64,000 nt of DNA from Ancylobacter aquaticus (GTDB lineage Bacteria > Pseudomonadota > Alphaproteobacteria > Rhizobiales > Xanthobacteraceae): assembly GCF_004339465.1 (NCBI RefSeq), contig NZ_SMFY01000004.1, positions 1-64,000 on the forward strand. Reading direction: 5' to 3'. The notes under the pieces are model-generated. The model made no database searches. It was not told the DNA's origin and saw only the letters and a program-made list of their open reading frames with translations. Of this stretch, positions 52,601-54,876 are shown one piece after another (positions within the stretch are counted from its first letter, which is position 1; each line of letters opens with the position of its first letter). The translations under genes were made by a program, and so were the position numbers.

Positions 52601-52996
52601 ATGAAGAAGGGCTACAAGCAGCTTTTGGCGGAAGCCGAGGCCGTGGTCACGGGAATCGAGGTGGCGGAAGCCGCGGCCCTGCAGGCCCGCGACGACGTGG
52701 TCTTCGTCGATCTGCGCGACCCGCGCGAGCGAGAGCGCGAAGGCTCCATCCCTGGCGCCTTCCCCTGCCCGCGCGGCGTGCTGGAATTCTGGATCGACCC
52801 GGAAAGCCCCTACGCCAAGGAGGTTTTCCAGCAGGACAAGCGCTTCGTGTTCTACTGCTCGCTCGGCTGGCGCTCGGCGCTGGCGACAAAGACGGCGCAG
52901 GAGATGGGGCTGGAAAAGGTCTGCCACCTCAAGGGCGGTTTCACCGCCTGGAAGGCCGCCGGCAGCGCGGTGGAGACGATGGCGGCGAAGGGGTGA
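52601..52996 (+). CDS. Rhodanese-like sulfurtransferase
   Basis: A 131-residue single-domain rhodanese. It has VVFVDLRDPREREREGSIPG (the DxRxxxE element), catalytic C86 in YCSLGWRS, and the terminal VCHLKGGFTAWKAAG. The active-site loop CSLGWR is six residues, as in single-domain sulfurtransferases. It lies 5 bp after ispG; it could supply sulfur for cluster repair of IspG, but that is inference. Confidence 0.93.
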   Translation: MKKGYKQLLAEAEAVVTGIEVAEAAALQARDDVVFVDLRDPREREREGSIPGAFPCPRGVLEFWIDPESPYAKEVFQQDKRFVFYCSLGWRSALATKTAQEMGLEKVCHLKGGFTAWKAAGSAVETMAAKG

Positions 52997-53019
52997 ACGG
53001 GGATCCTGGTTGCCAAACG

Positions 53020-53061
53020 ACCATCCTTCGAGGCTCGCTGCGCTCGCACCTCAGGATGACG
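53020..53061 (+). repeat. Palindromic repeat unit A (left of GIY-YIG gene)
   Basis: A 42-bp unit with arms ACCATCCTTCGAGG and CCTCAGGATGACG around a GC core. The arms pair with a two-base bulge. It differs at only two positions from unit C and one from the reversed unit D. TGGCTCT follows A and C alike. Confidence 0.9.
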
Positions 53062-53109
53062 TGGCTCTCACGGCCGCCGAAGCGGGGTTCTTGTCTTCCA
53101 CCCACACAC

Positions 53110-53153
53110 CGTCATCCTGAGGCGCCCGGCGCAGCCGGGCCTCGAAGGATGGT
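53110..53153 (-). repeat. Palindromic repeat unit B (left, reversed)
   Basis: The same arms as unit A in the opposite direction, with a different core (CCCGGC..GCCGGG) that itself forms a stem. It ends 15 bp before the GIY-YIG ATG, and the right flank ATCCGGGAG supplies the gene's probable ribosome-binding site. The flank ATCCGGGA also follows unit D. Confidence 0.9.
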
Positions 53154-53168
53154 CATCCGGGAGCGACG

Positions 53169-53465
53169 ATGGGTGCGTTCGTCTACATGCTCCGCTGTGC
53201 CGACGGCTCGTTCTATGTCGGGTCGACCAGCGGCCCATTGGACAAGCGCCTCGCCGAGCACGAGAGCGGCAGCTATCCCGGCTACACGTTTCGGCGACGT
53301 CCGGTAACGCTGGTCTGGTCGGAAGCGTTCGAGCGCATCACCGACGCCATCGCGGCCGAACGGCAGATTAAGGGCTGGACCCGGGTCAAGAAGGAAGCCC
53401 TCATCTGCAGTGACTGGGAGACACTCCGTCATGCCGCTCGGCGACAGTCTGTGCGGGAAGGGTGA
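53169..53465 (+). CDS. GIY-YIG nuclease of the small UPF0213/YhbQ type
   Basis: A 98-residue single-domain endonuclease-like protein. VYMLRCADGSFYVGST corresponds to the GIY..YIG motif, RLAEHESGSYPGYT gives the conserved Arg and His, and AAERQIKGWTRVKKEAL gives the catalytic Glu and following helix. Members cut DNA or have unknown substrate. Two pairs of the same palindromic repeat face each other on each side: A and B on the left, C and D on the right, with 15 and 12 bp between gene and nearest repeats. This tight packaging suggests the gene moves with, or acts on, these repeats. Confidence 0.9.
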   Translation: MGAFVYMLRCADGSFYVGSTSGPLDKRLAEHESGSYPGYTFRRRPVTLVWSEAFERITDAIAAERQIKGWTRVKKEALICSDWETLRHAARRQSVREG

Positions 53466-53477
53466 CGCGCCTGGGCG

Positions 53478-53519
53478 ACCATCCTTCGAGGCTCGCTACG
53501 CTCGCGCCTCAGGATGACG
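53478..53519 (+). repeat. Palindromic repeat unit C (right of GIY-YIG gene)
   Basis: A 42-bp unit with the arms ACCATCCTTCGAGG/CCTCAGGATGACG, same direction as unit A, beginning 12 bp after the GIY-YIG stop, and likewise followed by TGGCTCT. Confidence 0.9.
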
Positions 53520-53838
53520 TGGCTCTGTGAGCGACCGGCAGAGACTTGACCTCATCTGAGCATCACCGTCGCCCCGAGAAGCCCGGCATCGCTGGGCTTC
53601 CAAGGAGGATCAACCACACCACTTTGCCTTCCCCTTGCCCGCCGTCATCCTGAGGTGCGAGCGTAGCGAGCCTCGAAGGATGGTGATCCGGGAACAGTCC
53701 GCAGGCGCCTGTCCGTATGGGTGAGGAAAACGCCTTCGCCCGCCCCCTCCTCCCACCCGTTGCCCTTGCGTCCCTTATCGCGTAAAAGCCCGCGCTCGCC
53801 CGAGCCTGTGAATGGCAGGGCCTTCAGGAGATCAGCAC
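53520..53838. other. Intergenic region between repeats and asd
   Basis: About 320 bp holding unit D and, at about 53579-53612, an inverted repeat GAAGCCC/GGGCTTC. AGGAG before the asd start is its ribosome-binding site. I see no gene. Confidence 0.6.
53643..53684 (-). repeat. Palindromic repeat unit D (right, reversed)
   Basis: Reverse orientation copy, one mismatch to unit A over 42 bp. Followed by ATCCGGGA, as is unit B. So the pair A-B left of the gene and the pair C-D right of it are arranged identically, i.e. as direct repeats of an inverted pair. Confidence 0.9.
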
Positions 53839-54876
53839 ATGGGCTACAAGGTCGCCATCGTCGGTGCCACGGGTAATGTGGGCCGCGAAATGCTCGACAT
53901 CCTCTCCGAGCGCGGGTTTCCCGCCGACGAGGTGGTCGCGCTTGCTTCTCGCCGCTCGGTCGGCACCGAGGTTTCCTTCGGCGACAAGACGCTCAAGTGC
54001 AAAGCCCTGGAGAATTACGACTTTTCCGACACAGACATCTGCCTGATGTCGGCCGGTGGCGACGTTTCCAAGGAATGGTCGCCGAAGATCGGCCGCCAGG
54101 GCTGCGTGGTGATCGATAATTCCTCCGCCTTCCGCTACGACAGTGACGTGCCGCTGATCGTGCCGGAAGTGAATGCCGACGCCATCACAGGCTTCACCAA
54201 GAAGAACATCATCGCCAACCCGAACTGCTCGACCGCCCAGCTTGTCGTGGCTCTCAAGCCGCTGCACGATCTGGCGACGATCAAGCGCGTGGTGGTGGCG
54301 ACCTATCAGTCCGTCTCCGGCGCCGGCAAGGACGCGATGGACGAACTGTTTGCACAGACCCGCGCGGTGTTCGTCTCCGACCCGGTGGAAGCCAAGAAGT
54401 TTCCCAAGCGTATCGCCTTCAACGTCATTCCTCACATCGACGTCTTCATGGAAGACGGCTACACGAAGGAGGAATGGAAGGTGATGGTCGAGACCAAGAA
54501 GATCCTCGACCCCAAGATCAAGCTCACCTGCACCGCCGTGCGCGTGCCGGTGTTCATCTCGCATTCGGAAGCCGTGAACGTCGAGTTCGAGAAGCCGATC
54601 ACCGCCGAGGAGGCGACGCAGGCGCTGCGCAACGCGCCGGGCGTGCTCGTCATCGACAAGCGCGAGCCCGGTGGCTACATCACCCCCTACGAGGCCGCCG
54701 GCGAGGACGCCACCTATGTCTCGCGCATTCGCGAGGACGCGACGGTGGAGAACGGCCTCTCCTTCTGGTGCGTGTCGGACAATCTGCGCAAGGGCGCGGC
54801 GCTGAACGCGGTGCAGATCGCCGAAGTGCTGGTCAACCGCAAGCTGATCAAGCCGAAGGCCCGGAAGGCGGCGTGA
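53839..54876 (+). CDS. asd: Aspartate-semialdehyde dehydrogenase
   Basis: A 345-residue NADPH enzyme reducing aspartyl phosphate to the semialdehyde, on the path to lysine, diaminopimelate, methionine and threonine. It has VAIVGATGNVGREMLDIL, SAGGDVSKEW, IDNSSAFRYD, the nucleophile C130 in NPNCSTAQ, and VRVPVFISHSEAVNVEFEKP with the catalytic His. Complete. The ATG at 53839 has AGGAG upstream. Confidence 0.97.
   Translation: MGYKVAIVGATGNVGREMLDILSERGFPADEVVALASRRSVGTEVSFGDKTLKCKALENYDFSDTDICLMSAGGDVSKEWSPKIGRQGCVVIDNSSAFRYDSDVPLIVPEVNADAITGFTKKNIIANPNCSTAQLVVALKPLHDLATIKRVVVATYQSVSGAGKDAMDELFAQTRAVFVSDPVEAKKFPKRIAFNVIPHIDVFMEDGYTKEEWKVMVETKKILDPKIKLTCTAVRVPVFISHSEAVNVEFEKPITAEEATQALRNAPGVLVIDKREPGGYITPYEAAGEDATYVSRIREDATVENGLSFWCVSDNLRKGAALNAVQIAEVLVNRKLIKPKARKAA

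Follow-up and report, generated by a model that had tools for sequence, protein, structure and literature searches.

Among the described systems closest to the one analysed here is the REPtron, in which GTAG-tagged REPs accompany an HUH/catalytic-tyrosine (Y1) transposase, the RAYT. Other REPs carry the tag CGTC; in the passages of Di Nocera et al. (2013; PMC3733652) cited here, these have an AT-starting stem, mostly form head-to-head dimers and occur mainly in alpha-Proteobacteria. The same passages give them an unpaired CGTC (or TGTC/CCTC) end, an 8–9 bp stem, a loop of 4–5 and a CCA tail, equate Neisseria dRS3 and Rickettsia RPE-4 and RPE-6 with them, report no dedicated transposase and leave the mover open. 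A prokaryotic group of standalone GIY-YIG proteins is placed in the SLX1 cluster in the portion of Dunin-Horkawicz et al. (PMC1564403) drawn on here. No link between GIY-YIG enzymes and REPs was found among the matches listed in open-licence full texts, a scope outside which preprints and most subscription journals lie, and the term GIY is absent from the available part of a paper on Bradyrhizobium repeats (PMC5082802).

The window (the whole 64,000-nucleotide stretch of Ancylobacter aquaticus DNA that was analysed) contains a small GIY-YIG gene that resembles a REPtron in several ways: the gene is bracketed by palindromes, gene-less copies are scattered elsewhere, the repeat families are enzyme-specific and presence is patchy. 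Its enzyme, however, is a GIY-YIG nuclease (PF01541) and not a Y1 transposase, and all four of its main palindromes are tagged with CGTC (as CGTCATCC..) instead of GTAG. The system is REPtron-like in function, yet it is not a REPtron, because the defining enzyme is absent. Relative to the CGTC-tagged REPs of the passages cited above, the tag and the AT start of the stem agree; the window class, a candidate member, has a stem bulged by 2 nt, a core that is longer and variable, and GG instead of CC after the stem, with no CCA tail. As we argue below, the locus is best explained as a two-part element with a dedicated GIY-YIG nuclease, a reading to which we assign a probability of about 0.68.

Organization of the locus

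An earlier note on this DNA had described four palindromes, A to D, around the gene, and their coordinates and strands were reproduced (Table 1). As it had stated, A, C and D differ from one another at 1–2 positions while B joins the same arms to another core; the gene ends 12 bp before C and begins 15 bp after B (about 15–17 bp on re-measurement, depending on the end chosen for B); and TGGCTCT follows both A and C, ATCCGGGA both B and D. The latter sequence also follows the upstream repeat in G313, G324, G300 and G072. Its proposal that the ribosome-binding site comes from the repeat flank likewise agrees with the position of the Shine–Dalgarno-like GGGAG, and in the Ancylobacter species read, the flank of the upstream repeat has GGGAG or GGGAA before the start codon. 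A fifth, decayed palindrome between C and D had been overlooked; its counterparts in G313 and G324 are, by eye, better kept. The site is intergenic and no host gene is interrupted there. Neither a sigma-70-type promoter nor a T-run terminator was found in 52900–53850.

Table 1. Features of the nuclease locus (positions in the window)
Feature	Position	Strand	Remarks
Palindrome A	53020..53061	+	S1, a REP of the CTTCGAG..CTCAG class; arms recur at 16 places in the genome
Palindrome B	53110..53151	-	Opposed to A; core differs (CCCGGC..GCCGGG); pairs with A in one hairpin
Shine–Dalgarno-like GGGAG	53159..53163	+	Within the flank common to B and D; read from the sequence
GIY-YIG endonuclease gene, 98 aa, S subfamily	53169..53465 (incl. 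stop)	+	Pfam PF01541
Palindrome C	53478..53519	+	Direct repeat of A
Decayed fifth palindrome, C–D interval	~53567..53610	-	Stem AGCCCGGC/GCTGGGCTT folds
Palindrome D	53643..53684	-	Opposed to C

The exact-arm pattern CATCCTTCGAG-N4-32-CTCAGGATG matches four times in the window, against an average of 0.00 in shuffled sequence, and the 4.83-Mb genome as a whole has 16 matches, against 0 for the reversed control; a looser arm pattern gave 25 genomic matches and 1 in the control. A quarter of the exact-arm copies (4/16) is therefore packed into 665 bp around the gene. Elsewhere, several copies form gene-less doublets that are built alike, with a unit and then its reverse; others are solitary. Folded as single-stranded DNA, the A–B doublet reached a z-score of -7.3 against its own shuffles; the single units gave -1.0, -3.7, -2.3 and -1.8. 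Rfam matches were to microRNA families, at scores far under the gathering thresholds, and were rejected as artefacts of hairpin DNA.

The nuclease

GIY-YIG (PF01541, E 7.6e-16) is the sole Pfam domain in the 98 residues; no NUMOD-like or further DNA-binding domain was found with Pfam, and the gene is not intronic. The active site looks intact, because Y6, Y16, G18, R27, H31, E64 and K68 are invariant across 20 aligned sequences. We take the catalytic set of the domain to be Y, Y, R and E; with all four present and the domain standing alone, the protein has the make-up of an SLX1-like standalone enzyme. An AlphaFold2 model (mean pLDDT 89.8) matched the UPF0213 structures 1zg2 and 1ywl best, the only two with E < 0.001, followed by SLX1 at a modest E of 0.011–0.044. 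SLX1 is a branched-DNA endonuclease. PHROGs, PADLOC and NCBIfam assigned the protein to no family, and plasmid and phage searches returned few close relatives.

The S1 palindrome adjoins close relatives of the gene

Searching 297 genomes of the order gave 33 strong rows (E < 1e-20) in 30 genomes, here called the S subfamily, and many weak rows (W), mostly at ~42% identity. Five of the 33 strong rows carry an in-frame stop. With one broken fragment assigned to S by us (L069), 34 S loci were tested, and the CTTCGAG..CTCAG palindrome was present within 250 bp on both sides at 18, upstream only at 8, downstream only at 4 and on neither side at 4. A scan of named genomes, some of which overlap the 297-genome set, gave 579 confirmed matches, of which the best 80 were kept; these supplied 76 S loci with both flanks, where S1 occurred within 250 bp on both sides at 34, on one side at 23 and on none at 19.

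The earlier note had proposed counting the repeats near genes of this type against a matched control, and had regarded its idea as refuted should the arms show no excess at GIY-YIG genes over other genes. Set against the other ORFs of the same loci the count was positive, with both sides occupied at 34/76 nuclease genes and 3/835 control ORFs; a further 116 controls, the gene's own neighbours included, had S1 on one side. Short ORFs were boxed on both sides in 1 case of 242. The density of S1 per 250-bp flank bin fell roughly 60-fold, from 0.86 next to the gene (134/156) to 0.014 past 750 bp (52/3800). This ORF control was used instead of mismatched partners, which were unclean in the S group because related species share the repeat (score 14 in 11/34 mismatched and 23/34 true pairs).

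Many motif-less S loci have some other repeat: at 17 of the 19, a different sequence common to both 300-bp flanks scored at least 16, as a raw count with no control, one example being the TTCGACAGGCTCAG type of sphingomonads. L154 and L196 have neither S1 nor another repeat common to both flanks. Where there is a near upstream repeat, its core often ends about 20 bp ahead of the start codon. The stop codon lies inside a repeat (TCATCCTGA, read Ser-Ser-stop) at 11 of 122 S loci, a tally in which some genomes are counted twice. The two flanks of L050, an S gene without S1, share a long direct repeat (score 148), and at L230 (G300) the repeat and about 40 bp stand in tandem upstream of the gene with a period of ~83 bp.

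W genes have palindromes of their own

The W sample of 57 loci consisted of 56 weak rows taken by E-value plus L012. The S motif was absent from all 57, and a repeat common to the upstream and downstream 300 bp was present at 46/57, compared with 7/56 mismatched partners. Many W repeats are CGTC-tagged hairpins such as CGTCATGCCCGGGCTTGTCCCGGGCATCCA, and CGTCAT.. is found at many W loci. Many W repeats, such as CGTC-ATGCCCGGG-CTTGT-CCCGGGCAT-CCA, match the stem, loop and CCA tail in the published description of CGTC REPs, as far as the passages cited above give it. The 2-nt bulge hid the S class from an initial general REP detector, and S and W detectors were kept separate afterwards. With genus loci added, the CGTC detector found repeats on both sides at 43 of 70 W loci, on one side at 6 and on none at 21, and the density per 250-bp bin dropped from 1.05 at the gene to 0.06–0.08 past 500 bp. 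Twenty W loci, chosen by list order, were read again with flanks of ~8 kb; repeats lay on both sides at 11, one at 1 and none at 8; among the control ORFs of these loci the counts were 4/243 on both sides and 45 on one, and short ORFs at W loci were boxed in 2/63 cases.

Flanking repeats are also found beyond the taxonomic class, where 14 of 20 W-like loci had a both-flank repeat score of at least 19 (raw, with no mismatched-partner control), five of these 14 being of the CGTCATTCCCGCG..CGGGAATCCA type. At three W-sample loci, which we read as UPF0213-like, flanking repeats of these kinds were not found; the window protein shares the minimal single-domain fold of SLX1-like and UPF0213 standalone proteins and differs from these relatives in its repeats. 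At L012 (G000:C1:1280103), the second GIY-YIG gene in the window's genome, a long direct repeat outside every defined class recurs in both flanks (score 83).

Repeat classes mostly follow nuclease clades

On a tree of 123 proteins, the main repeat class required 32 changes, with a shuffled mean of 73.1 and 0 of 200 shuffles as low, in a test that scored 'no class' as a class, included 12 hand-added named S loci and used a tree with few columns and many open forks, in which near-copies favour a low count. The S1 motif was present at 42 of 46 S loci (L198 and L219 being two contig ends of one site) and at 0 of 70 W loci; nine of the 46 also match some W pattern. By our tally, 14 genomes (G060, G120, G187, G247, G054, G257, G283, G014, G315, G300, G307, G319, G316 and G321) hold paralogues of different clades with different repeat classes, for example S1, W4 and W1 in G120, W3, W1 and W4 in G054, and S1 alongside W5 or W1 in G315, G300, G307 and G319. 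Paralogues of one clade share one class in G106, G269, G220 and G306. G191 is a counter-example, its S gene L051 carrying mostly W1 repeats, as does its W gene. The class labels come from regular expressions and are coarse: L164 is probably mislabelled W2, W7 is mixed, and the S gene L051 is labelled W1.

At the level of genome comparison, these results establish both the association of the nuclease genes with palindromes and its clade-specific pairing. The pairing resembles the repeat-specific REPtrons described for RAYTs in the cited passages of PMC3733652.

Repeat copy number follows the gene

The 30 of 297 genomes with a strong S match contain 7–157 repeat copies each, with a median of 35.5; low counts include chance matches, the reversed control giving 0–3 per genome. 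In the remaining 267 genomes, 46 have at least 7 copies. The relation between copy number and gene presence gave a Fisher value of 1e-20 among species that are not independent. The earlier note had named equal frequency of the repeat in genomes lacking the gene as an outcome against its idea. Frequencies are not equal, since all 30 S genomes have at least 7 copies, but the separation is not absolute, as 25 of the 267 genomes without a strong match have at least 20. A profile search of 17 of these 25 found a broken S gene only in G032, boxed by the same repeat; its other, weaker matches showed no S1 motif in 28 fetched loci (loci were available for 30 of 37 rows). The remaining high-copy genomes without the gene look like cases in which it was lost and the repeats were left, or in which there is another mover.

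When S-bearing genomes were searched for the RAYT-type domain (Y1_Tnp, PF01797), 13 of 14 lacked it, the window's genome among them; the same search was positive in 5 of 14 named control genomes. The RAYT-free genomes include G106, G213, G238 and G060, with 157, 113, 98 and 90 repeat copies.

A proposed model for nuclease and repeats

In the two-part element that we favour, the autonomous unit would be a minimal SLX1-like GIY-YIG gene with a doublet of its cognate repeat on either side, and the scattered gene-less doublets would be its non-autonomous offspring. In lagging-strand or supercoiled DNA, the opposed palindromes could form extruded hairpins or cruciforms; the nuclease may then recognise the conserved bulged stem, with CTGAG opposite TCGAAG, and cut it at its base close to the CGTC tag. 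New intergenic copies would arise when the doublet so cut is repaired or re-inserted. We consider it very probable that the nuclease acts on its own repeats, binding and cleaving them. That it also drives their spread is a step further, and a probable one. The enrichment near the gene and the copy numbers support the earlier note's suggestion that a GIY-YIG enzyme plays a RAYT-like part; a causal role in mobility is an inference. The second subfamily with palindromes of its own, many of them CGTC-tagged, and the agreement of repeat class with nuclease clade go further than the note had.

The minimal SLX1-like GIY-YIG nuclease is best explained as the dedicated enzyme of CGTC-type REPs, as the RAYT is for other REPs. 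Extending this, we lean slightly towards the view that, throughout Proteobacteria, solitary SLX1-like GIY-YIG nucleases supply the mobilising activity that the CGTC-tagged REP superfamily has seemed to lack, perhaps including dRS3 and the RPEs. If so, they would constitute a second, independently evolved class of REP–nuclease element, with a separate palindrome for every nuclease clade, in which hairpin DNA is moved by hydrolytic cutting with no covalent tyrosine intermediate. Should cleavage hold, GIY-YIG would add a further fold to the enzymes that mobilise short palindromes. A specific candidate enzyme can now be named for CGTC-tagged REPs, and small bacterial nucleases of a large, uncharacterised group gain a likely substrate. 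Many nuclease/palindrome pairs are available, from whose natural covariation hairpin recognition might be read.

Variation within the genus and alternative explanations

Across the genus (30 genomes), the S gene occupies seven different sites. Upstream of asd, nine genomes are comparable; in the other 21 the rhodanese neighbour is not in the DNA examined, or the contig ends. The gene is boxed by repeats in five (G000, G313, G324, G300 and G072, with the right-side repeat truncated in G072 and the site spread over two contigs in G324), a single A–B-like doublet without the gene is present in G311, whose Asd is 99% identical, and G323, G305 and G308 have no such repeats. Loss of the gene from G311 by recombination between direct repeats appears more likely than a pre-insertion state, because the gene is present at this site in species whose Asd is less similar. 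Downstream of groEL, G306 and G319 have the unit just past what is, by eye, a terminator-like hairpin; of the 30 genomes searched for empty sites, those listed mostly have a different upstream gene, and the informative ones are G305 and the less similar G300, which have the flanking genes without the unit. Upstream of cbbX, compared by eye in 15 of the 30 genomes, an S1 doublet without the gene is present in five species, a doublet of another class in G311, G313, G324 and G321, and none in G302, G305, G310 and G318, while G322 and G315 are ambiguous. G308 has the S1 doublet there although it has no strong S match. Doublets therefore vary in presence independently of the gene. No clear target-site duplication was seen when occupied sites were compared by eye with empty ones, both at cbbX and downstream of groEL; the flanks there are too diverged.

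The shifting sites of the gene and the lone doublet of G311, where five genomes have the boxed gene, would also suit a homing-type selfish gene whose enzyme cuts a doublet lacking the gene, recombination between repeats then copying the gene into it; the repeats would be its landing sites and would spread by other means. Homing is known for other GIY-YIG enzymes (PMC1564403, in the portion cited), and possible selfish spread is a point of likeness to I-TevI-type endonucleases. We consider this explanation unlikely. The window gene has a whole doublet on each side and not a split half, and unlike the I-TevI type it has no extra DNA-binding domain and interrupts no host gene; by Asd identity G311 falls among gene-bearing species, where loss is as likely; and homing leaves unexplained both the repeat classes that track nuclease clades and the higher repeat counts of gene-bearing genomes.

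Somewhat less probable again is a domesticated maintenance nuclease that trims or resolves repeat hairpins and protects replication, with nearby repeats regulating the gene and no spreading. Long palindromes are replication hazards, and SLX1 is the nearest solved relative past UPF0213. A repair role is predicted for prokaryotic SLX1-like proteins in the cited portion of PMC1564403. Such a role needs no boxing on both sides, however, and a selfish element better accounts for a gene that is patchy (30/297), shifts site within a genus and in some cases is present more than once or is broken. That gene and repeats merely hitch-hike into the same permissive intergenic gaps, as their intergenic positions and the terminator-like hairpins seen by eye just before the groEL and cbbX sites might suggest, is very improbable and already disfavoured, since other ORFs at the same loci, short ones included, are seldom boxed and each nuclease clade has its own repeat class, mostly within single genomes too.

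The two-part element thus remains our preferred reading, and some further observations concern the sites themselves. At the cbbX spot (L364–L378), DNA past a terminator is possibly favoured as a landing site. Upstream of asd, the gap that holds the S unit in the window's species is occupied in G297 by a W-subfamily gene (L240/L209, label W5), so that two systems may have colonised one gap. In G308, the same gap (L232) holds an unrelated insert of ~600 bp on the opposite strand that has, on a sequence impression, the look of a small toxin–antitoxin pair.
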